From assembly GCA_020352645.1 (NCBI GenBank), contig CP070683.1:1647750-1681075 (forward strand): a stretch of DNA of 33,326 nucleotides. Direction: 5' to 3'. This document shows, piece after piece, positions 12,538 through 31,479 of the stretch. Each line of letters opens with the position of its first letter. Position 1 is the stretch's first letter. The DNA is from Candidatus Bathyarchaeota archaeon. GTDB taxonomy: Archaea > Thermoproteota > Bathyarchaeia > Bathyarchaeales > SOJC01. Below the pieces are notes generated by a model. It was not told the DNA's origin. It made no database searches and saw only the letters and a list, made by a program, of their open reading frames with translations. The position numbers and the translations under genes are program-made.

Positions 12538-14046
12538 TTAAATCGGTGCAGCTCCAACCATTCCCAGCAGGTAGTTCTGCGAGAAGAAAAGCGAGATATA
12601 GCCAGTTACAGCCAACATTCCTGAATACTTGAAGCCCGCAGCAAAGGTTCCTTCGCTGATTTTTCCAATAAAGAATCCTGACATCCAGCATTGAAAAATG
12701 ATACCTATTGAGAACATCATAATTTGCTGCTCCATAGCGGCGAACATTGCTGGTGACGCTCCAGGAGCGGTGATTTGCGTAAGAACGAAGATAGTTATTG
12801 CCACTATGGAAGTTGTAAGAGCTATAAGTACGCTCCATACGAAAGCTAGCAAGACGTATGGTTTTAAGGTCGAACGTTTGTTTGCTTCGATATCTCTGTT
12901 CTTCTCACTGTATTCTGACAGAATCTCCAGTGCGTTTGCGTCTCCTCCGCCAAACTCTATTGTCTCGATCAGGATTAAGAAATAAACGAGCACGGGCCAG
13001 CTTCGGATTCGTCTTCTTACGTTGCTGAAAATTCTTCTGAGAGGAACTCCCCACTCGATTTGACTGCGAATGAGCTTCAGGATTTCACTGAATGATCCGT
13101 ATCCAGTTCTCTTAGTGGCATGTATGATGCTCTTGATTGGGGAAAGCCCAATCTTTCTGGACTCAGTTACATCTCTGAGGAAGCTAGGCATAGCCTCTTC
13201 TGCAGCAAGATTTGTCCTTGCTATTTTCCAATAGACAAATGCAGGAGCCAGTGATGCTGTCAGAAGAGAGAAGGCTACCAATCCTGGCAGAGTGAGGATT
13301 TCAATGACAACTCCTAATTGTGGGAGAAACATCACTGCTCCGAGAAAGCCCAATGAGGCTCCAGCGGAAAGCAACGCAATGCGATAAGCCTCCTTCACAG
13401 ATAGCAGGTTGCTTTGGCGGGCAAGGTTTGCTATCGCCATGAAGACAAATGTTATGAAAGGCGTTGCCAGGAACATGAGTGCGTACATGAGTGGCTCCGA
13501 AGCAGAAGTGGACAATCCAACGGACATATACTCAAAGGTTGAGGTCGTTCCGATAACGACGTACAAAATGTATACACACAACGTAACAATAAGCATTACA
13601 GCATATGCTTCGACCAATGTTCCTAGTCTCTCAATTGATCTAAGTGCAGCGGCGCTTTGGGTTTCCAGAACTGAACGGAGCTTAGTTCTCAAGAAGCTTA
13701 CCACGTTTATGCCGCTCTTGACTGAAGAGACGTATCCTCCGAGAAAATCACGGTAATTCTTTGAAGTAGCGTCTTCTGCTTTTTTTCGCATTACTGTCAA
13801 CGGATCTCGACCTAAAACTTCCACTTGCCTTACAACTTCTTTTGCTTCATTCTGTGTTTTCGGTAACAAGCTGATTCGACACATCTTCTTCCAAGCGTCA
13901 TAAACTGCAACTCCACTTGCAGCCATCAGAGTAAACAGCATCACGGTGAAAGGGAGTTCTTTGTCCACTTCTGTCGCTTTCTGTTTTCCGGACAATAATG
14001 AGAGTAGCGAGTTGAGTAGTCTCAAAGGATTCAGCGAAGATGCCAA
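12538..14046 (-). CDS. Type IV pilus platform protein, FlaJ/TadC family
   Basis: 502 residues, polytopic. It carries two T2SSF-type cytoplasmic domains separated by groups of membrane helices (around 140-165, 185-207, 218-270 and 390-415), with the conserved FlaJ-like stretch GLSPIKSIIHATKRTGYGSF and EFGGGDANALEILSEY near the second domain. It anchors the assembly ATPase in the membrane and drives pilin extrusion. The frame opens with TTG at 14046 behind a GGGTGAG site, 6 bp after the ATPase gene. Absence of flaH/flaF/flaG homologues argues for a pilus rather than an archaellum. Confidence 0.88.
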   Translation of the reverse strand: MASSLNPLRLLNSLLSLLSGKQKATEVDKELPFTVMLFTLMAASGVAVYDAWKKMCRISLLPKTQNEAKEVVRQVEVLGRDPLTVMRKKAEDATSKNYRDFLGGYVSSVKSGINVVSFLRTKLRSVLETQSAAALRSIERLGTLVEAYAVMLIVTLCVYILYVVIGTTSTFEYMSVGLSTSASEPLMYALMFLATPFITFVFMAIANLARQSNLLSVKEAYRIALLSAGASLGFLGAVMFLPQLGVVIEILTLPGLVAFSLLTASLAPAFVYWKIARTNLAAEEAMPSFLRDVTESRKIGLSPIKSIIHATKRTGYGSFSEILKLIRSQIEWGVPLRRIFSNVRRRIRSWPVLVYFLILIETIEFGGGDANALEILSEYSEKNRDIEANKRSTLKPYVLLAFVWSVLIALTTSIVAITIFVLTQITAPGASPAMFAAMEQQIMMFSIGIIFQCWMSGFFIGKISEGTFAAGFKYSGMLAVTGYISLFFSQNYLLGMVGAAPI

Positions 14047-14052
14047 CTTCTC

Positions 14053-15639
14053 TCACCCGTCTGACTTGCTTGGGGGCTCAGAACTGTAGTAGTATTTGCT
14101 CAGGGCATCGTTAACATCTCGATAGTCTCGAATGTTGTGCTCAGCCATGTGAAGTAGCATTTTCTTCCTCTTCGCGAGATCATCCAAAACTTGGTCTACA
14201 GTGACGTCAAGTTCTCTTGCGATCTTAGTCACTAGATAGCTATTGTTCAATTCCTCCTGAAATGTGTCTGTGGATGCACTCCAGGTGAAGACGTCTTTTG
14301 TCGAGTTGGCGTTTTTTATCTCTGTTACTCGCACGAATTTTCTGCTTGAAAGCCTTTTCTCACCACTTAAGAAGATGGGGGTTCTCACATGTTTCACGAT
14401 GATTGCACAGTTCATCAGTGGAATTATGGATGAGGGGATATTCATAGGAGGTTGAGTTAATCTTTTGATAGCAGTTTCAACGTCTTCTGAATGTATCGTA
14501 CATAGGCCTCCATGTCCTGTTGCGAGTGCTTGAAAGAGTACATACGCTTCTTCTCCCCGTACTTCTCCCACGATTATCAGATCTGGTCTATGTCTGACAG
14601 CAGATTTTATCAAGTCGTAGAGTGTGATTTCTCCTTCGCTCTCCACTCCGAAGCCTGATCTGGCAATCGTCGCAGTCCAGTTCTCATGGGGCAGGTTGAT
14701 TTCAGCTACCTCTTCCACTGAAATGATCTTGAAGTTTGGTCTCACAAGACAAGCAATAGCATTTAGTGCGGTTGTTTTCCCTGCGCCTGTTGCCCCCATT
14801 ATCATCACTGACATTTTGTTTTCCATGAGAAGCCACAGGTACGCCGCTATGTTTTCATCTATTGTCTCGTTTTCGATAAGATCTATTATTGTGAATGGGT
14901 CTTCACGAAACTTGCGTATTGTAAAGCTTGTTCCTGAAGGAGTAGTTTCTTTCCCGTACGAAACTGCTAGGCGGTGTTGTCCGGGCAAAGTCACGTCGAC
15001 GATAGGAAAGGCAATGCTGACGTGTTTTCCTGCTTTGTGGACCATTTTCATGACGAAGTCGTCGATTTCCTGCTCTTCTTTGAAGGAAATGTTTGTTCTG
15101 ATATTTTCGTATCTTCTGTGCCAAAGGAAGATATTCTTGTTGATTCCGCTACAGCTTATGTCCTCGACGTAGGGATCAAACATAAGTGGATCTATTTTTC
15201 CGTAACCAACAATGTCCCTTTCTAGATAGTATGATATTTTCCTCAAACTGATTGGAGAAACAAATCTGACCATTTTCCGATGCGAGTCAAGAATTTCAGG
15301 CATCTGTGAGTGAAAGGACTCGCCTAAGGTTTCATCTCCTTCTGGCGCTAGGAGTTCGTATTCCAGAATATTATTCATTCTCAGAAGGAGATCACGTTCG
15401 TCTTTGCTCAGGAGTAATTCGTCGACAATGTATAGGAATGTTCCAGTGTCCTCGTTCTGTACTATAGATGCATAGGAAAATGGGGCGTTGAGAGGATAAC
15501 TTTCTGCCTCTTCATATCCTTCAGGTACGGCGGCTCTCTTGAGGTTTAGGAACCCTGCTAGAGCCTCTTCTGATACGCTGAAATCAGATTCATCCTTTAA
15601 TGTGTCTCTTTTTCCTTTCTTCTTCAACTTCAGCTTCAT
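14053..15639 (-). CDS. Type IV pilus assembly ATPase, FlaI/TadA/VirB11 family
   Basis: 528 residues, full length. The hexameric secretion ATPase core has Walker A GATGAGKT (282-289), the Asp-box region around IISVEEVAEINLP, Walker B LIIVGEVRG (354-362) and the His box TGHGGLCTIHSED (374-386). The N-terminal ~120 residues are variable and likely bind the platform. It powers polymerisation of the pilins encoded around it. Its ATG overlaps the upstream stop (ATGA), and FlaJ follows 6 bp downstream, so ATPase and platform are tightly coupled. Confidence 0.93.
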   Translation of the reverse strand: MKLKLKKKGKRDTLKDESDFSVSEEALAGFLNLKRAAVPEGYEEAESYPLNAPFSYASIVQNEDTGTFLYIVDELLLSKDERDLLLRMNNILEYELLAPEGDETLGESFHSQMPEILDSHRKMVRFVSPISLRKISYYLERDIVGYGKIDPLMFDPYVEDISCSGINKNIFLWHRRYENIRTNISFKEEQEIDDFVMKMVHKAGKHVSIAFPIVDVTLPGQHRLAVSYGKETTPSGTSFTIRKFREDPFTIIDLIENETIDENIAAYLWLLMENKMSVMIMGATGAGKTTALNAIACLVRPNFKIISVEEVAEINLPHENWTATIARSGFGVESEGEITLYDLIKSAVRHRPDLIIVGEVRGEEAYVLFQALATGHGGLCTIHSEDVETAIKRLTQPPMNIPSSIIPLMNCAIIVKHVRTPIFLSGEKRLSSRKFVRVTEIKNANSTKDVFTWSASTDTFQEELNNSYLVTKIARELDVTVDQVLDDLAKRKKMLLHMAEHNIRDYRDVNDALSKYYYSSEPPSKSDG

Positions 15640-17005: not shown

Positions 17006-17030
17006 ATTTGTGTGTAAAAGACTACTACAC
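17006..17030 (-). promoter_or_regulatory. Shared pilus promoter box, motor operon copy
   Basis: On the minus strand, TACACACAAAT (17016-17006) lies 54 nt before the ATG at 16952. A second element GTGTAGT (17030-17024) sits exactly 7 nt further upstream. The same two elements with the same spacing occur before the downstream pilin gene, and the first element also precedes the other pilin gene. Whether this is a core promoter variant or an activator site is open. Confidence 0.6.
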
Positions 17031-17071
17031 ATCAGAATGCAGCGTACATATTAGAGAACGCCGTATATTCG

Positions 17072-17089
17072 AAAAAAAAGGAAAAAAAG
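17072..17089 (-). terminator. Poly-T terminator after the second pilin gene
   Basis: On the minus strand the region just after the pilin stop runs into two T tracts of seven to eight T each, the typical archaeal intrinsic termination signal. It separates the abundant pilin transcript from the motor operon, which has its own promoter box. Confidence 0.65.
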
Positions 17090-17108
17090 AAAGAGTTTTG
17101 ATTTTTGT

Positions 17109-17660
17109 CTAAGCAGATGCTTGGACGTTGCTCTCTTTGTAGTATTGTGCGTTGGCTGTGAAGACGGTTATGCCTATTGTGACGCCGATGTCATTGACTG
17201 AGACGTGGTCTGGGTTGGCGATGTATACTATCATGGTCCAGCCTGATTTCAGGATTAGGTCGTCGCTGGCTTGTGTGAAAGTGAATGGTGTGGTGCCAAC
17301 GGTTATGCTGCCGCCATCGGCTAGTGTGGAATTGAACGGAAGATCGGCGTTGATGGTGTCTTGGGTCTTGTTGTAGTAGACGGTGGTCCATACGCATTCT
17401 TGTCCTCTAACAGTGATCTTGTCCATGACCAAGTCACGGCCGCCGGTGTTGATGATCAAGAAGGCTGTCTCGGCAAAAGTCGTTCCGTTATGCCATGTAT
17501 GAAGCTTGGTCACTTGTATGCTCTCTTCTTCGACTCTAGTTGTGGTTACGTTTATGGCGTAGAACGTAACAACAGTTGCTAGAAGCACTGAGACTACCAA
17601 GATAATCAGTGTCGTCACTACGGTGCTGAGTCCTCTCTTACTCTTCAAAAGACTTTTCAT
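17109..17660 (-). CDS. Major type IV pilin, copy 2
   Basis: 183 residues from the ATG at 17660, which has a GGAGAG site; a longer open frame upstream is non-coding leader. Class III signal: MKSLLKSKRG, cleavage expected after R-G, then LSTVVTTLIILVVSVLLATV, the hydrophobic helix that packs the pilus core. The head domain is beta-rich with sequons (NVT, NGT, NKT, NST) and a single cysteine (ECVW). It is a close paralogue of the gene 694 bp upstream: same length, no indels and about 85-90 percent identical by eye. Separate terminators and promoter boxes suggest independent, strong expression. Confidence 0.88.
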   Translation of the reverse strand: MKSLLKSKRGLSTVVTTLIILVVSVLLATVVTFYAINVTTTRVEEESIQVTKLHTWHNGTTFAETAFLIINTGGRDLVMDKITVRGQECVWTTVYYNKTQDTINADLPFNSTLADGGSITVGTTPFTFTQASDDLILKSGWTMIVYIANPDHVSVNDIGVTIGITVFTANAQYYKESNVQASA

Positions 17661-17709
17661 TGTTTTCTCTCCATTTTCGAAGGCAGTTTGCCCGCTATGA
17701 GATAAGATA

Positions 17710-17734
17710 ATTTGTGCGTAGGACAGAACTACAC
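17710..17734 (-). promoter_or_regulatory. Shared pilus promoter box, pilin copy 2
   Basis: Minus strand TACGCACAAAT (17720-17710) lies 50 nt before the pilin ATG, with GTGTAGT (17734-17728) 7 nt further upstream. This is the same pair and spacing as at 17006-17030. Confidence 0.6.
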
Positions 17735-17778
17735 ATATGTTGGCAGCGTAGTCGACTTTCAGGGAGTTGTTTATAGTG

Positions 17779-17785
17779 AAAAAAA
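17779..17785 (-). terminator. Poly-T terminator after the first pilin gene
   Basis: A seven-T run on the minus strand shortly after the stop of the upstream pilin gene, before the promoter box of the next pilin gene. It implies that the two pilins are separate transcription units. Confidence 0.55.
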
Positions 17786-17802
17786 TAAGGTGGGGTTTTT
17801 GG

Positions 17803-18354
17803 TTATGCTGATGCTTGTACATTGCATTCTTTGTAGTATTGTGCGTTGGCTGTGAAGATGGTTACGCCTATTGTGACGCCGATGTCGCTGACTGAGACGT
17901 GGTCTGGGTTGGCGATGTATACTATCATGGTCCAGCCTGATTTCAGGATTAGGTCGTCGCTGGCTTGTGTGATAGTGTATGTTGTGGTGCCGACGGTCAC
18001 GTTTCCGCCATCGGTTAGGGTTGGTTCATATGAAAGATCGGCGTTGATGGTATCTTGTGTTTTGTTATAGTAGATGGTGTTCCATACGCATTCTTGTCCT
18101 CTAACAGTGATCTTATCCATGACTATGTCTCTTCCGCCTGTGTTTATTATGAGAAAACCTGCCTCTGCGAATGATGTGCCGTTGTGCCAAATATGCTGCT
18201 TGTACAATTGTATGCTCTCTTCTTGAACCCTTGTAGTCGTGACATTGATGGCATAGAAGGTAACCACCGTAGCGAGCAAAACGGATACCACAAGAATGAT
18301 CAGCGTTGTAACAACTGTGCTAAGTCCCCTTTTGCTTGCAAGAAGCGATTTCAT
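17803..18354 (-). CDS. Major type IV pilin, copy 1
   Basis: 183 residues from the ATG at 18354, with GGGAAG upstream. The class III signal MKSLLASKRG is followed by the same LSTVVTTLIILVVSVLLATV helix as the neighbour. The first 49 residues differ from copy 2 at only two positions, and the C-terminal ~50 residues are almost identical. The middle differs more (YKQHIWHNGT versus VTKLHTWHNGT; DLSYEPTLTDGGN versus DLPFNSTLADGGS). The last residues change ESNVQASA to ECNVQASA, adding a second cysteine here. It may form a heteropolymer with copy 2 or be expressed alternately; neither can be decided from sequence. Confidence 0.88.
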   Translation of the reverse strand: MKSLLASKRGLSTVVTTLIILVVSVLLATVVTFYAINVTTTRVQEESIQLYKQHIWHNGTSFAEAGFLIINTGGRDIVMDKITVRGQECVWNTIYYNKTQDTINADLSYEPTLTDGGNVTVGTTTYTITQASDDLILKSGWTMIVYIANPDHVSVSDIGVTIGVTIFTANAQYYKECNVQASA

Positions 18355-18406
18355 TGTCTTCCCTCGACAATCATTGATAAGATATATGCCTCTCTGAAGT
18401 ATGTTC

Positions 18407-18417
18407 ATTTGTGTGTA
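18407..18417 (-). promoter_or_regulatory. Shared pilus promoter box, pilin copy 1
   Basis: TACACACAAAT on the minus strand, 53 nt before the pilin ATG. The GTGTAGT element found upstream of the other two copies is absent here. Confidence 0.55.
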
Positions 18418-18488: not shown

Positions 18489-19406
18489 TTAAGACCTAAG
18501 ACTGATCTCCAAAGGCTTCTCAGCTTTCCATAATTCAAAGAAGAGTTTGGAGAAGGCATTGACGAACGCTTCATAGTTTGTCCATAGAGCAGCAAGCTTC
18601 ATACGTTTTTCCTTATCATTAGAATGCTCGCTTCTCTTTCTAATGAAAAGGAGAAGCTCGTCTTGATCTGTTAAGATGAAGGTTGGCACACCCTTGATAT
18701 CCGAAAGTGAATACCGAACATCAGGAAGCCTAATTTTCTGCACAAAGAACTGGCTCTTCCGACAATTCTTAGTGAGAAGCTTTACTTCAAGTTTCTTTTT
18801 AGATAGTTTCTCAAGTCTATCTATAAGGCCTGAATGATACAATCTTGCAAGATCGTCTTCAGAAGCGAAAATGCTTGTTTTTGTTTCAGCTTTTTGCACA
18901 ATCTCATTTGCCTTAAAGTCTACCTGTTCCTCACCCTCAAGTATTTGGAAAACCTCTTTCCTTTGATGCACAATTTCAGGGTGCGGGAGGGAGAGCCAGA
19001 TTTCGATTAGATCCTTCTTCTTACGTTCCAGCTGCCTTATCCTAAGCTTCTTGGCTTCGATCAGAGCTTCAATCGCCTTTTCGAAAGGTGTGGCAATGAA
19101 TTTGAGAGGTTTCTCGAAGACTGATGAGACTAAACCTCTTTTTTCTAAGTCTCGCAATATTCGATAAGTCTCAGTTCTGTGAAGGCTGAGTGCTTCGGAA
19201 ATCTCGCTAGCCTTCCTCTCCCTTGAGCGGGCAAGATAAACATAAACTCGTATCTCATTCTTTGATAGACCGAGTTTCTGAAGCATGCTCTCAACAAGCT
19301 CTATGGATTTGATCGGACCCGTATCTTTTCTGATATATTTCCAGGTCCCCGCATTATCGTCATAAACCTTAACAACCTTTTGAGGTTTTTCCACAATCGT
19401 CTCCAA
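18489..19406 (-). CDS. TrmB-family transcriptional regulator
   Basis: 305 residues. The N-terminal winged helix (about 38-105) has the TrmB hallmarks: LGLSKNEIRVYVYLARSRERKASEISEALSLHR (in two blocks) and TYRILRDLEKRGLV. A charged coiled coil (about 112-140, KKLRIRQLERKKKDLIE) is followed by a C-terminal effector-type domain with IFASEDDLARLY and a PLD-like fold. TrmB proteins usually respond to sugars. The specific sugar-binding extension is missing, so the ligand is unknown. The frame begins with TTG at 19406; GTG at 19394 with GGAG upstream is a likely alternative. It faces LonB across a 242-bp intergenic region with repeats, and pilins lie downstream, so it may control either. Confidence 0.83.
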   Translation of the reverse strand: METIVEKPQKVVKVYDDNAGTWKYIRKDTGPIKSIELVESMLQKLGLSKNEIRVYVYLARSRERKASEISEALSLHRTETYRILRDLEKRGLVSSVFEKPLKFIATPFEKAIEALIEAKKLRIRQLERKKKDLIEIWLSLPHPEIVHQRKEVFQILEGEEQVDFKANEIVQKAETKTSIFASEDDLARLYHSGLIDRLEKLSKKKLEVKLLTKNCRKSQFFVQKIRLPDVRYSLSDIKGVPTFILTDQDELLLFIRKRSEHSNDKEKRMKLAALWTNYEAFVNAFSKLFFELWKAEKPLEISLRS

Positions 19407-19648: not shown

Positions 19649-21865
19649 ATGGCTTATTTCGGAGAAGAAACAGAAATCATACGCGGGAAAAAGTGGAACT
19701 GGCGAAATTTCAGATCCACAGAGACGTATCCTGTATCCAATAATCTCCTCGACTGGGTAATAGGGCAAGAACGGGCTTTGAACGAGTGTTATCTGTGCCT
19801 TGAAGAGTGGGTTCATAAACTTAAGAATCTAGAAAAAGAGAATTGGTATGAAGCGTGGAAAGATGCGAAAGGAGAAAAGCCAAACACCACTAAAGCACCC
19901 CCTCCGGGACCTTATCTTCTGCTGCTGGGTGATCCAGGCACTGGGAAATCTCTGATCGGGAGAGCTCTCGCAGCCCACCTCACGGAATTGTATGAGCAGC
20001 ACAAGATTCAGCTCAAAGATGTCATTTGCTGGCAAAATGATATTGTACCTAGTGAGCCCAGAATCTCCTCTCACCCAGCAGGGGAAGCAAAGAAAATCAT
20101 TTTCAAAGAAAAACTGAAAGAAACTAAGAAACTGTTTCTCCAAAGAGCCGGAATAAAGGCTCTAACCTATCTGATGATTGTTGTCGCTTCCGTATTCATG
20201 TTTGCAGGCTTCTATTACCTGTGGCAACAGCAGCTACAGTGGGATGCTAATATTTTGACGGCGTTCGGACAACCAGTACAAGAGTTCTATGGAGGAGACT
20301 TCACCAAGTACATGCTAGACGCGTTCGTTTCGATAGGCACAACCACCTTCTTACCTGCAGGCATGATGCTGATGTTCCTAATTCTAGTCGTTGTGCTTGG
20401 ACGCTTTGGGATCATGGGAGGAGCAAAGGGTGTTGGCGGAGCGAAGGCGACAAACGTTCCTAAACTAATAGTTGACAACACACAAAGAGTGGCTCCCTTC
20501 ATTGATGCAACAGGCCATGGCTCAGCTCAGCTGTTTGGTAGCATTGCTTGGGATCCACTGCAGACTGGAGGTTTGGGAACCCCTGAACATCAAAGAGTGT
20601 CCGCAGGCGACGTTCATAGAGCTCATTCCGGCATACTTTTCATTGACGAAATCAAAAATCTAAAACCATCTGAAGCGGTCACTTTGCTGACCGTGCTGGA
20701 AGATGGACAGCTGCCGATTACCTTGAGAAGCCGATGGGATGAAGGAAATACAGCTGCAATGGCTGTGGCAACTGAATCAGTGCCATGCATGTGCTTCCTA
20801 GTAGGAGCAGGCAACTTCGACAGCATAGGACAGGTTCATCCAGCTCTTATGGACAGGATTTATGGTTATGGCAAAGTCGTGAGAATGAATAACGACATGC
20901 CAAATACTGTAGAGAATCGCAGGAGATATGTTCAGTTTATTGCCCAAGAAGTTTCACGATTCCATCTACTACCATTCAGCAGAGAAGCTTGTGAGGAAGT
21001 GCTGGATGAAGGACGTAGGCGAAGCAACAAGAGGGATGGGCTGACAACAAGATTCAGACCGATGATATCGATAGTAAAAACAGCCGCAACCTTGGCTATC
21101 AAAGAAAGCTGTAAAATGGTTGAGAGAAGACACGTAAAGGAGGCAATCGAGAAGCACTGTAAAACAATTCAGAAGCAGATTCTTGAACATCAGATAAGCG
21201 AAAGAGGTAAGCTTCTTGACATCAGACCTGAAGGTGTCAGACTCGGCCAGATTTATGGCCTAGCAGTGGTTTCTGATCCCTTTAGCGGTGAAATGACTGG
21301 TAATGTGTTAACCGTTAAAGGGTTTCTGGACAAGAGGGACAACGGAAACAACAATCATCTGAAAGGATACTACAAAGTAACGGGAATCGCAAAAGGCAGG
21401 AAAGAACGGTTCATAACAGATAGCGTCGCGAAAGTACGAAGTGTAATTCTGCAGAAATATGGTGTAGATATCGCCCAAGACTACTTCACTCACATAGATT
21501 TTGCTCAAGCGTATGGAGTGGACGGGCCGAGTGCAGGTGTTACGATGGCCATTCTTCTGTGCTCATTGATAGAAGGCAAATCACTCAGACAAGACGTAGC
21601 AGTGACTGGTGAGATTAATGTCGGAGTTGACGGCGACGTTCCGGTTACTGCAATCGGTGGTCTTCATGAGAAGATCAGAGCTGCTGAAGCGTGGGGTTTC
21701 AAGAAGGTGGTAATTCCCGCGAAGAACTACAAGCACTCGATAGATCCAAGAGACTATGACATAAGCGTGGTTCCAGGCGAGACTTTGAGAGACTATCTCA
21801 AAGAATGCTTGGTTGACTATATTGCACCGTTCAGCACAACAGGAAATACAGATCAACCTAAATGA
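19649..21865 (+). CDS. lonB: ATP-dependent protease LonB, membrane-anchored
   Basis: 738 residues, long for archaeal LonB (about 620-700). Order: N-terminal AAA+ entry, Walker A GDPGTGKS (94-101), two membrane helices (about 171-191 and 236-251) inserted in the ATPase domain as typical for archaeal LonB, Walker B ILFIDE (329-334), sensor N389, helical domain, then the Lon protease domain with catalytic Ser628 in DGPSAG and Lys675 in GGLHEK. It degrades misfolded and regulatory proteins at the membrane. The ATG is well placed after GAGGGAGAATC. The N-terminal 90 residues carry an insertion rich in Trp/Lys (VHKLKNLEKENWYEAWKDAK) before Walker A that is longer than usual. The repeats upstream and the chaperone-like cluster downstream hint at a stress or quality-control neighbourhood. 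Confidence 0.95.
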   Translation: MAYFGEETEIIRGKKWNWRNFRSTETYPVSNNLLDWVIGQERALNECYLCLEEWVHKLKNLEKENWYEAWKDAKGEKPNTTKAPPPGPYLLLLGDPGTGKSLIGRALAAHLTELYEQHKIQLKDVICWQNDIVPSEPRISSHPAGEAKKIIFKEKLKETKKLFLQRAGIKALTYLMIVVASVFMFAGFYYLWQQQLQWDANILTAFGQPVQEFYGGDFTKYMLDAFVSIGTTTFLPAGMMLMFLILVVVLGRFGIMGGAKGVGGAKATNVPKLIVDNTQRVAPFIDATGHGSAQLFGSIAWDPLQTGGLGTPEHQRVSAGDVHRAHSGILFIDEIKNLKPSEAVTLLTVLEDGQLPITLRSRWDEGNTAAMAVATESVPCMCFLVGAGNFDSIGQVHPALMDRIYGYGKVVRMNNDMPNTVENRRRYVQFIAQEVSRFHLLPFSREACEEVLDEGRRRSNKRDGLTTRFRPMISIVKTAATLAIKESCKMVERRHVKEAIEKHCKTIQKQILEHQISERGKLLDIRPEGVRLGQIYGLAVVSDPFSGEMTGNVLTVKGFLDKRDNGNNNHLKGYYKVTGIAKGRKERFITDSVAKVRSVILQKYGVDIAQDYFTHIDFAQAYGVDGPSAGVTMAILLCSLIEGKSLRQDVAVTGEINVGVDGDVPVTAIGGLHEKIRAAEAWGFKKVVIPAKNYKHSIDPRDYDISVVPGETLRDYLKECLVDYIAPFSTTGNTDQPK

Positions 21866-22067: not shown

Positions 22068-22742
22068 GTGGTGAATTATACCATGGTTGATGGAGTAGAA
22101 GAAAGACCGCAGGTTCATAACGTTCTGCAGCACCAGCATTCAGAAAATGGCATTGGTGCTTCCATCGCCAGCGAGTCACCGAACACTGACGAAACTCAAA
22201 TAGAGTATAAAGAGGATGAGAACGAACTCAACAACTCTCTAAGAGCGATTGGAGAAGAGACGACTAAGCTGGCCGAATACATACAGCAAGAAAGAAATCT
22301 AACACAGGACCTAAGCAACCTCCTGGTTCACGTGTTAAGAAGACTCAAGACTTCTTTCAATATTCCCCCCAGTGATTTGACCGTAGTCGGCCCGGCGAAA
22401 AAGATCGAGCTCACCGCAGAAGGATACTTGAGAATAACTAGGCGGGATGATAGTGTGAACTCAAGATTTCTAGCAGAACACTCTCCAGATACAGTCCTGA
22501 GCGTTATGATCACTGTCGTTCCGGAACTCGAGAAAGCAGTTGAATCATATCGCGAAAACATCACTAGAAGAGTCACACTCCTAGAAAAAATAAAAAGTGA
22601 GCTAAAGAGTCTACAGAAAGCGGTCTCATATGGGGAGAAAGAGAAGCTTAAACAAACCGAAAGCAACGGAGTACAGAGTTCGTCGATATCAAACAAAGTT
22701 AAAGATCAAACCGATAAGGGGTCGGAAAGTTGGGAAATGTAG
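22068..22742 (+). CDS. Helical protein A of the MoxR/VWA neighbourhood, paralogue of the gene at 26956
   Basis: 224 residues from GTG 22068 (GTG 22071 or ATG 22083 also possible). No known family is recognised. Layout: an acidic, low-complexity N-terminus (1-60); a helical segment NSLRAIGEETTKLAEYIQQE-RNL; a short beta-like centre (KKIELTAEGYLRITRRDD); a long helix or coiled coil (TVLSVMITVVPELEKAVESY, RENITRRVTLLEKIKSELKS); and a polar C-terminus. The same order and many identical residues occur in the protein at 26956 (SLR...EERNL; LMISVAEDVLPKLGEL; RAYRQTLENRISFLSSITKE), so the two are paralogues. It is soluble, with no membrane segment. It overlaps the next gene by 13 bp. Confidence 0.65.
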   Translation: MVNYTMVDGVEERPQVHNVLQHQHSENGIGASIASESPNTDETQIEYKEDENELNNSLRAIGEETTKLAEYIQQERNLTQDLSNLLVHVLRRLKTSFNIPPSDLTVVGPAKKIELTAEGYLRITRRDDSVNSRFLAEHSPDTVLSVMITVVPELEKAVESYRENITRRVTLLEKIKSELKSLQKAVSYGEKEKLKQTESNGVQSSSISNKVKDQTDKGSESWEM

Positions 22743-23278
22743 CGACAGAAATCCGCAGCTTCTATTCGATAAGAGAAATGTGCGAAGCACTCGAGGAGGA
22801 TATCCTGCAAAACAAAGGGATAGTGGAAGAATACAGCCAATGGCTTGGCTCATTCTTGCGAGATTCAGATGTGGCTCAGGAAAATGAAGAATGGAGAAAA
22901 ACGTTAGAGAAGCTAGGAAAAGCGAAATCCAGAAGGAAGACCAAGAAAGCAAAGAAGAGGGGCAAGTCGGGAAGCAAGCAATGGTCGAGTGACCATTGGA
23001 TTCAATTCAAAGAAATCATGTTGAGTGCGTCTGAACAGGGCGAAGCTGAAATACTTTTCGACGCCATAGAAAGCCTCAGTAATAAGGTAGATCGATTAGA
23101 AAAGGCCAAGGATTCTCTGTTAGAGCTAGAGAGGTCTAGACTCGGTGGCGACATAACATATATAGCATATTTCTGTGACGGAATACCTGAGAAAGTGGTT
23201 CTTCGCCATAGAAAAGACCAAGAATTCGAAAAGAAATTTCAGTACATGGCTGACTTCTCTATTGTGAAAGATGCGTAG
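22730..23278 (+). CDS. Unrecognised basic/coiled-coil protein B
   Basis: 182 residues from TTG 22730, overlapping the stop of protein A, so the two are co-translated. The N-terminal helical part (REMCEALEEDILQNKGIVEEY) is followed by a strongly basic linker (about 66-84: KSRRKTKKAKKRGKSGSK), a coiled coil (about 105-138, SLSNKVDRLEKAKDSLLELE) and a small C-terminal domain (GGDITYIAYFCDGIPEKVVL, then RHRKDQEFEKKF). The basic linker could contact nucleic acid or an acidic partner such as the N-terminus of protein A. No family is recognised; the function is inferred only from its place between protein A and the SecB-like gene. Confidence 0.6.
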   Translation: MGNVATEIRSFYSIREMCEALEEDILQNKGIVEEYSQWLGSFLRDSDVAQENEEWRKTLEKLGKAKSRRKTKKAKKRGKSGSKQWSSDHWIQFKEIMLSASEQGEAEILFDAIESLSNKVDRLEKAKDSLLELERSRLGGDITYIAYFCDGIPEKVVLRHRKDQEFEKKFQYMADFSIVKDA

Positions 23279-23320
23279 TATGTGTGAGAGTGCTACTGCA
23301 TATTGTCTGTAGCAAGTGTT

Positions 23321-23331
23321 TACACACAAAC
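23321..23331 (+). promoter_or_regulatory. TACACACAAAC box upstream of the SecB-like gene
   Basis: Matches the shared pilus promoter box at 10 of 11 bases. It lies 27 nt before GTG 23358 and 57 nt before ATG 23388; the latter spacing resembles the 50-54 nt seen at the pilus genes. This is a possible common regulatory link, or chance in an AC-rich stretch. Confidence 0.35.
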
Positions 23332-23357
23332 TGAAAATTGTCAACGCCTAGTCGTGA

Positions 23358-23960
23358 GTGGTTATTAGACTCGATAGAACTTATCATATGGGTGAAAATG
23401 GGGAATCAGAAATCAGCCCTTCAAATGCTTCATCAAGCGTTTCGGTCAACGTCAGAGTGAAAAGCCTGCTGGGGACTAAACTGGATGAAAACCAAGGGGA
23501 AGGAAGGGCCATCAATTTTGATGTAAAGGCGCAAATGGAAGAGCAACAACGGCGAAGTGGGCACATAAGCGTGGCTTTCGAATTGAATGTGGGAACCAAG
23601 CCGAGTGCTGTTAAATATTCGGTGCAGGGTGCCGCGATTATCGAAGGCAAGGATGAAGAGATAAGGAAAATGCTGGAAGTCAATCCTGAGACTCAAATCC
23701 CTTTTGTCTTCACAAAGGTGTATCAGCATGTGTTCATGTCAGTCTATCTGCTCGCCACTCTGATTGACGCTCCATATCCTCCTCCAAACTTACTCTCTTC
23801 GAGCGAGCAATCTGCTGAGCAGCCAGCAGCACAAATGGTGGCAGGCTATGAATCCAGGAAGCGGGAGGATTCTCCGCAACCAGTGCCTACTCCAGCATCG
23901 CAAGAAGGCGCTCCCCCACAGCCAGCAAACGTATCCGCAGAAAAGGCAAGCGGCCTTTAG
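23358..23960 (+). CDS. SecB-like chaperone domain protein
   Basis: 200 residues from GTG 23358; ATG 23388 is a likely alternative start (190 residues). Residues about 28-140 follow the SecB pattern: antiparallel strands (VSVNVRVKSLLGTKL; GHISVAFELNVG; AVKYSVQGAAIIEG), then P-x-x-x-IPFVFTKVYQHVFMSVYLL, equivalent to the FPYAREC helix of SecB, ending PYPPPNL, equivalent to FPQLNLAPV. SecB tetramers hold unfolded client proteins. The C-terminal ~45 residues are Pro/Gln/Ala/Ser-rich and disordered. The match is by pattern and not by strong identity, so I rate it moderate. It ends 26 bp from the convergent VWA gene. Confidence 0.55.
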   Translation: MVIRLDRTYHMGENGESEISPSNASSSVSVNVRVKSLLGTKLDENQGEGRAINFDVKAQMEEQQRRSGHISVAFELNVGTKPSAVKYSVQGAAIIEGKDEEIRKMLEVNPETQIPFVFTKVYQHVFMSVYLLATLIDAPYPPPNLLSSSEQSAEQPAAQMVAGYESRKREDSPQPVPTPASQEGAPPQPANVSAEKASGL

Positions 23961-23986
23961 AATATTATAGTGTTTGATGAAGACCT

Positions 23987-25696
23987 CTAATTCTCTAATG
24001 CAGCTGCTGACGTATTAATGAAAATTCTAGCAAACTTCTTTATCAAGTCCCTTTGGCTATAGACAGCACAGCCTTCTCTGAAGAACTCGTTCATCCTTTC
24101 GCTTTCAATACCCACCCCAATCACCTGAACACCTCGTTTCTTCATCGCGTCCACAGTCTCCCTAAGTTCGGCTGATATATTCGGGTAACCGTAGGGCCAT
24201 CCATCGGAGAGAACAATCAGAAATTTCTGTTCATCAAATCGTTGATTGAGAATCCTTCCTGCGACTCGAATAGCATCAGGCATATATGTTAACCCTTGGA
24301 ATTCTAATCCGCCTATTCTGGCACGAACTCTTGCCGAATACGCCTCCGATGAATCTTTCAACACATATAGGCAATCATTAAATGCATAGAAGGACCATGA
24401 ACCCGGGTCCATCAACAATTCCTTTGTTGCTTCAGCCACGCAAATTGCCAAAGCTCGCCCCAAATCACCTGTGATTCTCATACTTGCACTTGCATCGAAT
24501 AGGAGGCCCCAAGCATAGCTTCTGCTCAGATACTCATTCTCCATAAAAACATCTGTTCGTGGACTTCTACTAGCGATTTTTTGCACAACCTCTGTGAGAT
24601 CTAACTGCCCTCTTTCCTTTCTCGGATCTTCGTCTAACGCATCTTGAGCTACCCTCAAACTGTCCAGAAGACGCCTGCTTCCTCCCCTCAACAAAGTTCT
24701 AGCTCTCAGATACTGAGTATAATCTTCTTCAGGGAAAAGAACAGATTCAAACCTTGTGCCTTTGAGATGCCTGCGAATCTTGCTCAGGATTTTTTGCCTC
24801 CGCGCTTTCTTGTGGAGCCAAGAATCAAAAGCTTGAATGGCTTCCGCATCTACCTCTCTCCCCCAACAAGATTCAATATTTCCTCTCGGCACATTCCCGC
24901 CTAAGGTTTTCATCGATTCTCTGAAAATCTCTTCAACGCCACTATCATGTGGCTCGAATTCCTGAATGAAAACACTGGAAGGGCCAATCAATTCAGTGTG
25001 GGGTAAGGAAGGAGCTTCTAAGACTGGGCCATTAGATTCAAGAGTATGGATTAGACTCGCCGTAGTGTCACTAGCCTTTTCGTCAAGGCGCTTTTCCTTA
25101 CCGTTGAGTGCTTCAGCAAATTCTTGCCTGAGCGAAAACACCATTGCTGCCAACCTGGATACTACGGCCTCTTCAGTTCGCTCAAGTTTTCCCTTTGCGA
25201 TGCCTACGTTGATCTTTGCTAACAAGGACGCCATAATTCTAGTAGCAGGATTAAGGATGCGCTTACTAGGTTTCATCCTCAGAAAAGCCAGAGAATCTGC
25301 AAAAGCCAAATCCTGAAGCTTATCAGGTTGGTTTACCAGAATGTAAGCATTGGCCAATGCATCAGTAACCAAGGTTTGACAGAACCTCTCCACAAATGGG
25401 GGCTCTCCTTTAAGATCACAATGCATTTCATCATGGATCAAGGTGTGCGTGGTCAGATGCAAGACGCAGGCTCGAAATAGTTTGCCGACTTCAGCCTTCC
25501 CGGACTCTTCTTGAAGTAGGTATCCCAGAAAAGATATCTGCTTATCCGCTTGCATCTTGGGCAATGGTAGGATGATCTCGAAGCCACTGTTTTCTCGCCT
25601 GAGGATTGGTTGCTGTATATCGGGGTTCAGACGAATCTTGGTATTCCTGTTATCTTTCTGAAGCGAGACAGCCCAGGCATAGTCGAGAAATCCCAT
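23987..25696 (-). CDS. NorD/CbbO-type VWA-domain protein
   Basis: 569 residues. The C-terminal VWA domain (about 393-560) has a complete MIDAS: DASAS (401-405), T470 in QGLTYMPDA and D498 in VLSDGWP. The stretch VRARIGGLEFQGLTYMPDAI is very close to NorD proteins, the partners of NorQ ATPases. The N-terminal part is helical with a His-rich segment (H80, H84, H88, H92: HLTTHTLIHDEMHCD), of unknown role. NorD/CbbO proteins bridge a MoxR ATPase to its client (nitric oxide reductase, Rubisco). Neither client is nearby. It starts 5 bp after the MoxR gene, so the two form an operon. Confidence 0.83.
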   Translation of the reverse strand: MGFLDYAWAVSLQKDNRNTKIRLNPDIQQPILRRENSGFEIILPLPKMQADKQISFLGYLLQEESGKAEVGKLFRACVLHLTTHTLIHDEMHCDLKGEPPFVERFCQTLVTDALANAYILVNQPDKLQDLAFADSLAFLRMKPSKRILNPATRIMASLLAKINVGIAKGKLERTEEAVVSRLAAMVFSLRQEFAEALNGKEKRLDEKASDTTASLIHTLESNGPVLEAPSLPHTELIGPSSVFIQEFEPHDSGVEEIFRESMKTLGGNVPRGNIESCWGREVDAEAIQAFDSWLHKKARRQKILSKIRRHLKGTRFESVLFPEEDYTQYLRARTLLRGGSRRLLDSLRVAQDALDEDPRKERGQLDLTEVVQKIASRSPRTDVFMENEYLSRSYAWGLLFDASASMRITGDLGRALAICVAEATKELLMDPGSWSFYAFNDCLYVLKDSSEAYSARVRARIGGLEFQGLTYMPDAIRVAGRILNQRFDEQKFLIVLSDGWPYGYPNISAELRETVDAMKKRGVQVIGVGIESERMNEFFREGCAVYSQRDLIKKFARIFINTSAAALEN

Positions 25697-25701
25697 TTGA
25701 G

Positions 25702-26745
25702 CTACCGCATGCTTTGGTTTCCTTCGGGCTTGGGGAAGATGGATTCGATGATGCGCCTAACGTCATCTTGCACTTCGGAATTGTCACTCGTCAAAGCAAT
25801 TATCGTCTCTTCAGCAGCGACATTGGCTGTGTTGCCATCATGGATTAGAGTAGCCCAATTTATGAGATCCCCTAGTGAAGGTCCATAAGGTATGTCCCCT
25901 GATTTATACTGCCTTCTGAGCTCAGCGCCTGCTTGAACGATTTTGTAGGCAACGTCTTCATTTACCTTTGCGCGATTCCTTAGCATTTCAACCTCGACTG
26001 ATGAGATTTTGTCTCCAACACTCGTGTAATCGAAGTTTATCCATACCGCCATTCGCCTTCGCATTGCCGCGTTCAGCGGCTTCGTGCCAGCAAACTCGGC
26101 TGAATAAGGGTTCATGCTGATAACTAGATAACCATACTTGTGTCTCTCAACAACCTCATTGTCTTTCTCGTTCAGCACCAAATGACCACGAGTGTCGAGG
26201 ACTGGATTAAGCCTTGTGGCTACGTCCTGCTTCATCATATTGGCTTCATCTAAATACATTATACCGCCTTGTCTGAGCCACCTAGTAACCATCCCGTCAA
26301 TCCAATTCTCTTTCCCGAGTCCGATGAAGCGTCCAATCAGATCATATGAAGATGTCTGAAGTCCACAGTTGACTTCCCAAACAGGCAGTCCGCAGAGCTC
26401 CGCTACAAGATAAACAATATGGGTTTTTCCAGTTCCTGAAGGGCCTATCAGAGAACACTGTTTGAAGTAATAAAGCGCTCGGACTATCCGCTCGACATAG
26501 TGTTGTCCACTATCAATGTATTTTGGAGTGCTCTTGGGAATCATGTCCGCAAGGTGTGCGAAACTGTAGTTTGGATGAAGATCATATTTCCCAATGTCAT
26601 ACTGATTGTAGAGGGGAGATTGAGACATCGGGCGTTCCTTGTTTATGGACACCGTTATTTTGTAGTTATCTCTTCGAATTGAGGTGACCTTTCGGATTCT
26701 GCTATCTTCTTCCTTTTCTCTTAACCCTTGGTGTCCATAACTCAA
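25702..26745 (-). CDS. MoxR AAA+ ATPase, NorQ/CbbQ/GvpN type
   Basis: 347 residues from TTG 26745; an ATG at 26628 with AAGGAA upstream gives 308 residues and a more usual N-terminus. In the shorter numbering: Walker A GPSGTGKT (62-69), SYDLIGRFIG with W-x-DG-x-VTRW (about 94-117), Walker B IMYLDE (123-128), sensor 1 SMNP (171-174) and Arg finger region AMRRRMAVW (about 188-196). The DLIGRF block and the NPYSAE-x-x-GTKPLN loop place it with the NorQ/NirQ/CbbQ/GvpN group, ring ATPases that remodel metalloenzyme or gas-vesicle complexes. A TATA-like AAATATAAATATT (26783-26795) upstream gives a 15-20 nt leader to the TTG start, which favours the longer form. Confidence 0.88.
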   Translation of the reverse strand: MSYGHQGLREKEEDSRIRKVTSIRRDNYKITVSINKERPMSQSPLYNQYDIGKYDLHPNYSFAHLADMIPKSTPKYIDSGQHYVERIVRALYYFKQCSLIGPSGTGKTHIVYLVAELCGLPVWEVNCGLQTSSYDLIGRFIGLGKENWIDGMVTRWLRQGGIMYLDEANMMKQDVATRLNPVLDTRGHLVLNEKDNEVVERHKYGYLVISMNPYSAEFAGTKPLNAAMRRRMAVWINFDYTSVGDKISSVEVEMLRNRAKVNEDVAYKIVQAGAELRRQYKSGDIPYGPSLGDLINWATLIHDGNTANVAAEETIIALTSDNSEVQDDVRRIIESIFPKPEGNQSMR

Positions 26746-26782
26746 AATCTGAGGCCTCTATTCGTATATTGACTGATGGAGA

Positions 26783-26795
26783 AAATATAAATATT
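26783..26795 (-). promoter_or_regulatory. TATA box for the MoxR-VWA operon
   Basis: An A/T-only 13-mer about 40-50 nt before the TTG at 26745. Because it reads similarly on both strands, its direction is assigned from distance alone. Confidence 0.45.
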
Positions 26796-26842
26796 GCGTA
26801 CTACGACTTGCGATACGCTATTCTTATCTGGGAACTCCACCG

Positions 26843-26873
26843 TCAAAGACTGTTTGTCTTCCACAGTCATTGA
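26843..26873. promoter_or_regulatory. Imperfect inverted repeat in the divergent MoxR / protein D promoter region
   Basis: TCAAAGACTGT (26843-26853) and ACAGTCATTGA (26863-26873) pair at 10 of 11 positions around a 9-nt spacer. It sits between the MoxR-VWA operon and the divergent protein D gene, placed as an operator for either. No regulator is assigned. Confidence 0.45.
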
Positions 26874-26955
26874 ATGGGTAATGTGTGTAAGGGGCTGCAA
26901 CATACAAGAGTTTTTAGTTCCGCGACATTGAAGACTAGGCAAAGGAATGCTCCTT

Positions 26956-27483
26956 ATGAGTGAAGAAGCTAGTACTCAAGGGAAGGTGCAGTTTCCCGTT
27001 GAAGGTAGCTTGGTAAACACTAAGGAAACTCAAGAGACCCTTCAAAACCTTGTCACGTCACTAAGAATGATGCACGGTGACATTGGACAGATTTGCGAAC
27101 TAGCTTCTGAGGAGAGAAATCTGGTAGCAGCATTTATCGAATCGCTCTCAAAAGTCATGAGGCCTCTCACCAAAACGTTACCAGTTTCATCTCAAGTATT
27201 TCCAAGAAACGGGGGGAAAGTGATCAAAGCGTGCATTGATCATCATGGACACCTACTAATTCTCGATGAAAATGGACAAATGGAACTCAAAGATCTTGGA
27301 CATCCAGAGAACCTTAATCTCATGATCAGCGTTGCTGAAGATGTGTTGCCGAAGCTCGGCGAGCTCACAAGAGCTTATAGACAGACGCTGGAAAATCGAA
27401 TCAGTTTTCTTTCAAGCATCACGAAGGAAATGCAGAAAATATCTAAGGCATTGGCCACGGCCTTGTCAGGTGCAAACACTTGA
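26956..27483 (+). CDS. Helical protein D, paralogue of protein A
   Basis: About 175 residues. The frame opens with ATG 26947, but ATG 26956 has the AAAGGA site at a proper 9-nt distance, so I start there. Architecture parallels protein A: helix ending in SEERNL, central strand-like segment (VIKACIDHHGHLLILDENGQ), then a long helix (LMISVAEDVLPKLGELTRAY, RQTLENRISFLSSITKEMQK). The acidic N-terminus and polar C-terminus of A are much shorter here. It is unrecognised and has no membrane segment. It diverges from the MoxR-VWA operon, while A lies on the other side of that operon, so the pair flanks the ATPase module. Confidence 0.65.
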   Translation: MSEEASTQGKVQFPVEGSLVNTKETQETLQNLVTSLRMMHGDIGQICELASEERNLVAAFIESLSKVMRPLTKTLPVSSQVFPRNGGKVIKACIDHHGHLLILDENGQMELKDLGHPENLNLMISVAEDVLPKLGELTRAYRQTLENRISFLSSITKEMQKISKALATALSGANT

Positions 27484-28409: not shown

Positions 28410-29807
28410 TTACAGGCCAACCATTTTGACTTGTTCGACTTGAAGTGATGGTACAACTGAGCTTGAGAACTGTTTGGCGTCATTGCCTACTTGTGAAATT
28501 TGTCTGAACCAGTCAAATGCGTTTCCAGAAATCATGCCGTTCTTTATGGGATGTTCAATCTGACCATTCTTCACGTAGAATGCACGAGAAAGCTGCGCAC
28601 TCACCAGTCCAGAGCCTGCTTGAGGAAATCCAGACATCGATTCTACAAGTACTCCATTCTGCAATTCACTTGTCAATTCTTCTTTGCATTTGCGACCCCC
28701 CTCAATCAAGAGGTTTGAGGGGTAAATTTCTGGCTTTGCTCTATATCCGCTTCCAATAATCATCTTAACTAAATCAAATCCTCCAGCAGAACGAGACGCG
28801 TTCGCAGTATTCTCAGCCTTCAGCGTGTTTGCAGAGGTTGTGTCGTGAAGGAAGCTTCTCAATCTGCCTCTGTCCACCAACACTGTGGCTCTGGAAGAAG
28901 ACCCTTCATCATCGAAACTTCGAGAAGAAAAGCCACCGCTAAGTGTTGAGTTGTCTATAATTGTCAGATTCGAAGAGGCGACAAGATTCCCGACTTCCTT
29001 CGTCCAAGGTGATCTTCCAGCCATTACGGAGCTGGCTTTCAACGCATCAATCAAAACATGGACTGGTTGATAAGAAACAGCCTCTGGACTGAAGATGGCC
29101 GTTCCTTCAAAACTCTTTAGAGGCTTCGGCTTGAGCATCTCTATAACCATTTTTCCAACATTTCGACCAACTTTCTCTGGAGTTAGCTTCGACGAGCGGC
29201 TGAAAACTGAGTCGCTACAGCCTGGAGTCACTTCACAATTCTGCTTTCCGCTTCCAACAAGATAAAGAATGCATTTTGATTCTCGCTCTTCAAAGTCTAC
29301 TCCTGAGGTGTTATGAATCCCACGCCACCTAGATTGGAAAATCACATGACCATCTTTTGCGATAACTCTCTTGTCCACGTCTTCAGCAGCTATCATTGCT
29401 CTTCTGGCTATGTCCACTGCGTCCTCGACAGTGACCTCGTTAACCCGCTTGTCGAACAATCCAGCAACGCTTGGCAACTTTCGACGACCTGCGAAGGCAA
29501 AGTTCTCTATCTCTGAACTGGTTTTGGAGGCATCATATGCTTTTTCTGCAGCTACTCGTACTGCTTTTTCTTCCATGGCGTTTGTGCAGGCGAAACCAAC
29601 TTTGCCCTTGGAAGTCGCCACTCGAAAACCAACGCCGGAATCATCCATCAAGTTCTGAGTTAGAATGTCGCCATTTCTAATGGTGACCTCTGTCTTTGTT
29701 GTGCTTGTGTAAAATGCCTCAACCTGAGCGTTTCTCTTGGCTTCAATATGATGGACAGCCTTGCCAACGAAATCTTTGAGGATTGCCCAGTTTTTGTCTA
29801 AATTCAT
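28410..29807 (-). CDS. TldE/PmbA family metalloprotease subunit
   Basis: 465 residues. The N-terminal oligomerisation and substrate-channel domain shows VEAFYTSTTKTEVTIRNGDI and GVGFRVATSKGKVGFACTN. The C-terminal half has the TldE pattern (FSSRSFDDEGSSSRATVLVD, NTANASRSAGG) and lacks the HExxxH zinc motif, as expected for the non-catalytic subunit. TldE pairs with TldD to make a heterodimeric protease that trims unfolded peptides or leader peptides. Its ATG lies 3 bp after the TldD stop, which fits equal production of both subunits. Confidence 0.92.
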   Translation of the reverse strand: MNLDKNWAILKDFVGKAVHHIEAKRNAQVEAFYTSTTKTEVTIRNGDILTQNLMDDSGVGFRVATSKGKVGFACTNAMEEKAVRVAAEKAYDASKTSSEIENFAFAGRRKLPSVAGLFDKRVNEVTVEDAVDIARRAMIAAEDVDKRVIAKDGHVIFQSRWRGIHNTSGVDFEERESKCILYLVGSGKQNCEVTPGCSDSVFSRSSKLTPEKVGRNVGKMVIEMLKPKPLKSFEGTAIFSPEAVSYQPVHVLIDALKASSVMAGRSPWTKEVGNLVASSNLTIIDNSTLSGGFSSRSFDDEGSSSRATVLVDRGRLRSFLHDTTSANTLKAENTANASRSAGGFDLVKMIIGSGYRAKPEIYPSNLLIEGGRKCKEELTSELQNGVLVESMSGFPQAGSGLVSAQLSRAFYVKNGQIEHPIKNGMISGNAFDWFRQISQVGNDAKQFSSSVVPSLQVEQVKMVGL

Positions 29808-29810
29808 TGT

Positions 29811-31193: not shown

Positions 31194-31479
31194 AAGTGTC
31201 AACTCCTCAGTTAGATTCTGAACGTAACTATAGCCTGTGTTGGTAAATCTCTTTTGTGTATTCATAGGAAGAATAAGAGAAGAGGAATCGGTGCCGATCT
31301 TGCCCAACCAGTCTTTAGCTAGGTTCTACTCTAGCTAAGAGCAATGATCACTCTTTTGTCACTTTTCATCTCTCCGCAGAAGAAAGAGGGAAACTGCCAC
31401 TGCACAATCAGGTTTTTTGAAGACGTAGACAAGTTTCTAATCTTAATAAGCTGTAATGTAAAGATATTCGGGAAAACTC

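Follow-up and report, generated by a model that had tools for sequence, protein, structure and literature searches.

The window analysed here is a stretch of 33,326 nucleotides from a 1.68 Mb contig (CP070683.1) of a Candidatus Bathyarchaeota archaeon. It carries a module of six genes and, next to it, a type IV pilus locus (Table 1). The six open reading frames are confirmed. The gene for a CbbQ/NorQ-type ATPase precedes that for a VWA protein with a gap of 5 bp, an operon-like arrangement, and the four small genes A, B, SECB, and D all lie on the + strand, with A and B overlapping by 13 bp. All six proteins look soluble from their sequences, which contain no transmembrane candidates, so that the MoxR ATPase-VWA operon surrounded by four small soluble genes of the original prediction stands. 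A pilus-specific domain is not found in any member of the module.

Table 1. Genes of the six-gene module and of the adjacent pilus locus (window coordinates)
Feature	Position	Strand	Remarks
Candidate minor pilins, three	10265-11029, 11037-11471, 11449-12525	-	N-terminal hydrophobic segments; same operon
Type IV pilus platform protein (T2SSF/TadC family)	12538..14046	-	Pfam 4.3e-16; co-occurrence
Type IV pilus assembly ATPase (T2SSE family)	14053..15639	-	Pfam 5.1e-35; module-linked clade, tree support 100/100
Candidate minor pilins, two	15636-16094, 16095-16952	-	Single hydrophobic segment each
Type IV pilin-like protein	17109..17822	-	Pilin_N weak (0.0027); listed start likely too far upstream
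Type IV pilin-like protein	17803..18408	-	Hydrophobic segment at the N-terminus; weak Pilin_N match under the cut-off (0.0023); conserved neighbour
TrmB-family transcription regulator	18489..19406	-	Pfam TrmB 5.8e-17; travels with module and pilus
A	22068..22742	+	224 aa; member of the A/D family of helix-beta-helix hairpin proteins; termini of low complexity; family fold taken from the D model
B	22730..23278	+	Helical protein, 182 aa; Lys/Arg-rich linker, residues 59-90; conserved C-terminal end
SECB	23358..23960	+	SecB-fold protein, 200 aa; C-terminal tail low-confidence, probably disordered; AlphaFold2 and Foldseek
VWA protein	23987..25696	-	569 aa; complete MIDAS in the VWA domain at the C-terminus
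CbbQ/NorQ-type (MoxR) AAA+ ATPase	25702..26745	-	347 aa; first gene of ATPase-VWA operon
D	26947..27483	+	Second A/D-family protein, 178 aa; fold from structure prediction

The ATPase matches the Pfam families AAA_5 (8e-21) and CbbQ_C (9e-13), has Walker A (GPSGTGKT), Walker B (IMYLDE), and MRRR motifs, and shows the arginine-finger motif of the AAA+/VWA pairs. Midasin was rejected as its nearest relative: the high whole-sequence scores add up over the repeated AAA domains of midasin, none of which scores more than about 43 bits by itself, while NorQ reaches 81. GvpN was rejected likewise (39.5 bits, against a curated cut-off of 266.8). The VWA protein scores slightly under the curated cut-off of PF00092 (1.3e-4), and its best PDB match is NorD (7e-7). 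In alignments of its MIDAS (DxSxS...T...D), D401, S403, S405, and D498 are invariant and T470 nearly so, being S in some sequences. No relative is detectable for the N-terminal region of about 370 residues. The CbbQ-CbbO and CobS-CobT systems (PDB 6l1q, 9uka) resemble the pair in combining an ATPase of this AAA+ clade with a VWA partner, but the similarity is lower and their client genes (Rubisco, chelatase) are not seen in the vicinity of the module.

In Foldseek searches, the AlphaFold2 model of SECB best matches the SecB-like protein Rv1957 and SecB of E. coli and H. influenzae (E 2.9e-5 to 6e-4, probability 1.00, TM (target) 0.43-0.59). The model thus confirms the SecB monomer fold, and the earlier SecB-like call was right. 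The fold shared with the bacterial proteins (PDB 1qyn, 1fx3, 5mtw) is a four-stranded sheet with two helices. SECB differs from them in its long flexible tail and is only 8-14% identical; neither Pfam or NCBIfam nor a PDB sequence search gives a SecB family match. A and D, which had been proposed to be paralogous, indeed converge on a single profile family and are 21% identical. The D model (mean pLDDT 90) consists of a helix (23-74), beta strands (77-116), and a second helix (120-175). Prefoldin has a similar helix-beta-helix topology, yet the best prefoldin matches are poor (E 0.77-1.2, low TM); response-regulator matches (E 0.014) are at chance level and contradicted by the model. Fusions of A/D (loci L074-L081) offer no functional clue, the partner being an unnamed coiled coil encoded among unrelated genes. 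B, originally described as basic, is so only locally, with 13 K/R in residues 59-90 and an overall pI of 6.2.

The five families recur in Bathyarchaeia and Nitrososphaeria, including Nitrosopumilus and Nitrosotalea. Among the loci compared, the ATPase is present in 80, VWA in 78, A/D in 59, SECB in 58, and B in 51, many of the contigs being short. The ATPase and VWA genes adjoin in both classes. Co-occurrence was scored per genome as both, first only, second only, or neither, with p-values that ignore relatedness. In 151 Bathyarchaeia genomes the counts are 70/1/6/74 for VWA and A/D, 66/5/3/77 for VWA and B, and 65/6/10/70 for VWA and SECB. VWA is therefore approximately 1:1 with each of its small partners, including in genomes where SECB has been relocated. 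In 101 Nitrosopumilaceae, VWA and SECB give 29/0/1/71. The gene set is conserved and not a local accident, and its recurrence in dozens of genomes of two classes is more than chance. The proposal that the ATPase-VWA pair has its own accessory set is borne out, since A/D, B, and SECB accompany it repeatedly in both classes, and a scattering of the small-protein homologues away from MoxR-VWA genes was looked for and not seen. The suggested link to LonB did not survive: LonB adjoins the module only in the window's own family (f1, L052-L056), is not found beside it in other Bathyarchaeia families or Nitrososphaeria loci, and was dropped as a partner. Structurally, SECB comes closest to the SecB-like Rv1957 as bound to an antitoxin peptide, and it might by analogy be a toxin-antitoxin chaperone that stabilises one small protein outside the pilus machine. 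This is scarcely credible: a toxin-like gene is not recognised in the set, and SECB is inherited strictly together with VWA and the pilus.

The original prediction ended the module at 22068 and named no client. Co-occurrence and the pilus ATPase tree instead place it with the pilus locus at 10265-18408 and the TrmB-type regulator, and make this pilus its strong candidate client. In the Bathyarchaeia genomes, VWA and the TadC orthologue give 65/6/6/74. In the Nitrosopumilaceae, VWA and the module-linked pilus ATPase give 27/2/1/71, whereas VWA and another pilus ATPase clade give 15/14/24/48, which shows no link (p=0.11, relatedness ignored). Where a locus extends at least 7 kb to either side, the pilus ATPase is near the module in 9 of 15 loci in Bathyarchaeia and 12 of 16 in Nitrososphaeria, about 0.2 being expected in each class. 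In Nitrosopumilaceae the two lie within 5 kb in 24 of 25 same-contig pairs. In the tree, the module-linked pilus ATPases from Bathyarchaeia and Nitrososphaeria group in a single clade with 100/100 support, separate from the paralogues of the same genomes. The module thus tracks one pilus lineage and no other that was tested.

The correspondence has exceptions. The pilus orthologue is present without a detected VWA in G043, G074, G142, and G060 (the last retaining B and SECB), and reverse cases also occur; several of the discordant genomes are incomplete. In some Bathyarchaeia loci (L082-L084, L089) module and pilus are not neighbours. Some deep Nitrososphaeria loci adjoin a different pilus ATPase clade or none, and at L145, L148, L155, and L166 the fetched flanks contain no pilus gene. 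Such loci could indicate a system for general remodelling or quality control in the cytosol, with a proximity to the pilus that reflects ancestral synteny without a functional tie. However, where unlinked, the module still tracks the pilus orthologue (G079, G098, G106, G113, G115, G130), and since the two stay together there, synteny alone is insufficient. Module and pilus are also jointly present or absent among species within five genera (g20, g21, g25, g36, g41), and the other pilus ATPase is not tracked. We consider a general system improbable.

The module, then, probably helps build or control the type IV pilus. We lean, with some reserve, towards a five-family accessory module (AAA+ ATPase, VWA protein, SecB-fold chaperone, A/D hairpin protein, and B) dedicated to one type IV pilus lineage and acting by remodelling, for which NorQD provides the mechanistic precedent (PMC9976466). 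The contacts, client, and remodelling step that we infer would be as follows. The ATPase would form a NorQ-like hexamer on which the VWA protein docks as adaptor. The MIDAS of the latter, aided by the protein's own N-terminal domain, would grip a component of the pilus, be it a pilin not yet assembled, TadC, the pilus ATPase, or another, and ATP hydrolysis would remodel it, so that the pilus is assembled or activated. The SecB-fold protein may keep pilin-type clients in solution in the cytosol before their assembly, with A/D and B serving as scaffold or adaptors. The earlier label of a chaperone-type machine may fit such a scheme. A more specific version, in which the SecB-like holdase and its A/D hairpin and B coiled-coil cofactors feed or retrieve pilus subunits for the NorQD-like remodeller, is possible but doubtful.

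The likeness to NorQ-NorD of Paracoccus denitrificans (PMC9976466; PDB 9qhd, 9qh4) extends to the ATPase family, the C-terminal VWA domain with MIDAS, and the two-gene operon logic. Papers on ammonia oxidisers accordingly name the pair NorQ/NorD (PMC4084955, PMC6790972) and assume cofactor insertion into a respiratory enzyme. This role is strongly disfavoured and in our estimate very improbable. The original prediction saw no NorB/C near the module, and the COX1/NorB family (PF00115) proves absent genome-wide from the window genome and nine other module-positive Bathyarchaeia (10/10), the control genomes being positive. The PDB NorD matches are confined to the VWA domain (profile positions 375-541 and 365-534), with no NorD-type N-terminal domain. 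Unlike NorQ-NorD, moreover, the module has three extra partner families and follows the pilus.

The main rival to remodelling is a regulatory role: the VWA-MoxR pair, together with its partners, would govern how far the pilus is expressed or active and would not assemble it, much as the VWA protein ArnB, with ArnA, regulates the archaellum of Sulfolobus. Makarova, Koonin, and Albers (2016; PMC4858521) linked a thaumarchaeal VWA protein (arCOG02900) and a GvpN-like ATPase (arCOG00441) to type IV pilus subclade 4A. That pair, which likewise lies beside the pilus ATPase and TadC in Nitrosopumilales, is very probably the one described here, so that the module is only partly as uncharacterised as had been claimed: the pair was already known to be pilus-linked. 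The main text of that paper places the VWA protein in the ArnB subfamily and suggests an alternative regulatory pathway. ArnB, of the same arCOG there, serves a related surface filament, but it is paired with the FHA protein ArnA and described as never found in pilus loci, while the module VWA has an AAA+ ATPase as partner and lies inside or beside the pilus locus. Regulation would also agree with the co-travelling TrmB-type regulator and the partly basic B. On the other hand, a separate DNA-binding regulator is then already there, the profile libraries give no recognised DNA-binding or phospho-binding domain in any of the six proteins, and a SecB fold with a NorQ-type ATPase would be unusual in a pure regulator. 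We regard a regulatory role as unlikely, if still a serious contender. The main text of PMC4858521, where the pair is treated as regulatory, contains no mention of SecB and no Bathyarchaeia coverage that we found; the three partner families, SecB-fold, A/D, and B, appear to be new, as does the occurrence of the system in Bathyarchaeia.

The clients of MoxR-VWA systems are usually unknown; here there is a strong candidate in the type IV pilus, and a SecB-fold protein and two unnamed families are added to such a system. The 'NorQ/NorD' label in ammonia-oxidising archaea is likely a misreading, and since the pair without NorB is pilus-linked in the loci seen, it should not be read as a sign of nitric oxide reduction. 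The module occurs in ammonia oxidisers that are in culture, which makes the idea testable. These archaea are not known to possess SecA. If the version with a SecB-like holdase that feeds or retrieves pilus subunits is correct, a SecB-type step would operate in organisms without SecA, and these archaea would handle pilins by a SecB-fold route of type IV pilus biogenesis that has no known bacterial counterpart.

The window lies at the end of a genome of 1.68 Mb in one contig, whose close relatives among named genomes are 'Candidatus Bathyarchaeota', and all six open reading frames of the original prediction were found in it where they had been placed (see the table). The ATPase matches AAA_5 and CbbQ_C and has intact motifs. 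The VWA domain of its partner is C-terminal, with MIDAS residues kept across all aligned relatives; in the PDB it is most similar to NorD and CobT, with a further match to a collagen VI VWA, and all of these matches are confined to the VWA domain. Searches with A, B, SECB and D gave nothing above cut-off in Pfam or NCBIfam. A- and D-seeded profiles converge on the identical set of 28 sequences, so A and D form one family (A/D), as their description as paralogues had implied. The AlphaFold2 model of D (49 relatives, mean pLDDT 90) has a helix at 23-74, a small beta region and a helix at 120-175, with no significant match among solved folds. Its likeness to prefoldin is one of topology alone. 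B begins with a helical part at its N-terminus, which a linker rich in Lys and Arg joins to a conserved C-terminal end. The SECB model (57 relatives) is built of four strands and two helices and ends in a low-confidence tail; its sole Foldseek matches below 1e-3 are Rv1957 and the SecB proteins of E. coli and H. influenzae. These matches support the SecB-like assignment at the level of the predicted fold, a relationship missed by sequence searches alone.

Locations of the module genes and of related or neighboring features
Feature	Location	Remark
A	window 22068-22742	
B	window 22730-23278	
SECB	window 23358-23960	
VWA	window 23987-25696 (-)	
ATPase	window 25702-26745 (-)	CbbQ/NorQ-type MoxR AAA+
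D	window 26947-27483	
Pilus operon	window 10265-18408	
LonB protease gene	window 19649-21865	two candidate transmembrane segments
TldE-TldD-like pair	window 28410-31307	named by eye; short way downstream of module
Second type IV pilus locus	L182 (G000:C1:64000-74000)	window's genome; ATPase outside module-linked clade
A/D fusions	L076 5369-7093; L077 5690-7381	amino-acid biosynthesis-type genes around (by eye)
Distant B relative	L072 2589-3014 (G000:C1 about 396085-396507)	141 aa; widespread in order
SECB relative	L073 2259-2756 (G000:C1 about 179836-180303)	second, short, SecB-like; many genomes of order
Second VWA paralogue	L189 7355-8926	stand-alone; Nitrosopumilus genome G151

The set is conserved. 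In the window's order, A/D, B, SECB, VWA and ATPase occur together, with varying completeness, at 40 loci around SECB matches (families f1, f2, f4, f5, f6, f7 and f9). In some f7 genomes SECB is located elsewhere, with ATPase-VWA-B-A still present at another site (L082-L084, L089). Across 151 genomes of the order, VWA co-occurs (both/first only/second only/neither) with A/D at 70/1/6/74, with B at 66/5/3/77 and with SECB at 65/6/10/70. The ATPase profile reached 80 named loci, and in those of Nitrosopumilus, Nitrosotalea and Nitrososphaera SECB, VWA, A and B adjoin the ATPase; A/D, B and the SecB-like protein, proposed as accessories of the ATPase-VWA pair, thus recur beside it in both classes. 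In a phylum sample of 300 genomes, VWA is confined to the Bathyarchaeia order and a few other families, chiefly that of Nitrosopumilus; the assignment of these families to Nitrososphaeria is based on the named loci because the family labels are anonymous. LonB, put forward as a module neighbor, adjoins it in the window's own family only, and the TldE-TldD-like pair stands beside the module at none of the 40 loci.

Relatives of the module families also occur apart from it. The loci L074-L081, from some Bathyarchaeia, carry a 530-600 aa Pro-rich and coiled-coil protein with an A/D domain fused to its N-terminus. The distant B relative adjoins a gene that has no Pfam match but whose start, judged by eye, resembles a roadblock/LC7-type domain, and the second SecB-like gene is flanked by apparent ribosomal protein genes (by eye). 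The stand-alone VWA paralogue has no ATPase or other module member near. At L086 and L087 (genomes G069 and G019) the ATPase-VWA pair is divergent, and a weak SecB-like gene is nearby; A/D-like genes lie on separate contigs, and B was not found in these two genomes.

The original prediction, whose interval began at 22068, left the client unnamed; a pilus operon sits just beyond that interval. When gene families are ranked by frequency over the 80 loci, the five module families are followed by a TrmB-type regulator, a pilus ATPase, a TadC-type protein and pilins. Among loci with enough flank, a pilus ATPase lies near the module at 9 of 15 in Bathyarchaeia and 12 of 16 in Nitrososphaeria (about 0.2 expected in each), and of the 25 pairs in Nitrosopumilaceae that share a contig, 24 are at most 5 kb apart. 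In Nitrosopumilales the module genes are interleaved with pilin-like proteins and a LamG-domain surface protein, and at L161 and its relatives with a prepilin peptidase also.

Among the pili compared, the link is specific to one lineage. In Bathyarchaeia VWA follows the orthologous TadC (65/6/6/74, p=5e-28, genomes treated as independent) and not a second TadC paralogue present in most of those genomes. In Nitrosopumilaceae, where only about 28% of sampled genomes carry VWA or the linked pilus ATPase, VWA tracks that ATPase (27/2/1/71, p=4e-21) and shows no such association with a further clade of pilus ATPases (15/14/24/48, p=0.11), both p values again taking genomes as independent; SECB in turn goes with VWA (29/0/1/71). 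Within genera g20, g21, g25, g36 and g41, module and pilus orthologue are both present in some species and both absent in others, and both are absent from two f1 genomes (G037, G041), which counts against a pure effect of relatedness. In a tree of 43 pilus ATPases, module-linked copies from both classes form one clade (100/100), with second copies from the same genomes outside it. At five deeper Nitrososphaeria-type loci (L119, L128, L138, L164, L167) a pilus ATPase that belongs to another clade lies about 9 kb or less from the module. The module-pilus link is well supported.

NorQD serves as the precedent: the ring of its NorQ hexamer is plugged by the VWA domain of a single NorD, MIDAS contacts the client and the N-terminal domain gives specificity (PMC9976466). 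Both parts are present in the module, but its VWA N-terminal region differs and it adds a SecB-fold protein, a fold that would suit the holding of unfolded or unassembled clients. From these parts we infer an ATP-driven remodelling, chemistry included, of a pilus component by ATPase and VWA, with SECB as a putative holder of pilin-type subunits. The main rival is that the VWA-MoxR pair is regulatory, as already proposed by Makarova et al. (PMC4858521), who describe a strong link of the pair to thaumarchaeal pilus loci (subclade 4A). Neither a SecB-fold partner nor the extension to Bathyarchaeia was found in the literature searched, which for that paper was its main text. Genome papers on ammonia oxidisers name a NorQ/NorD pair without NorB (PMC4084955, PMC6790972), likely the pair seen here given the shared lineages, and the N. 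evergladensis paper reports it close to nirK. The core pilus link of the pair was previously published for one class; the module is a real, conserved, pilus-specific MoxR-VWA type with a SecB-fold component.
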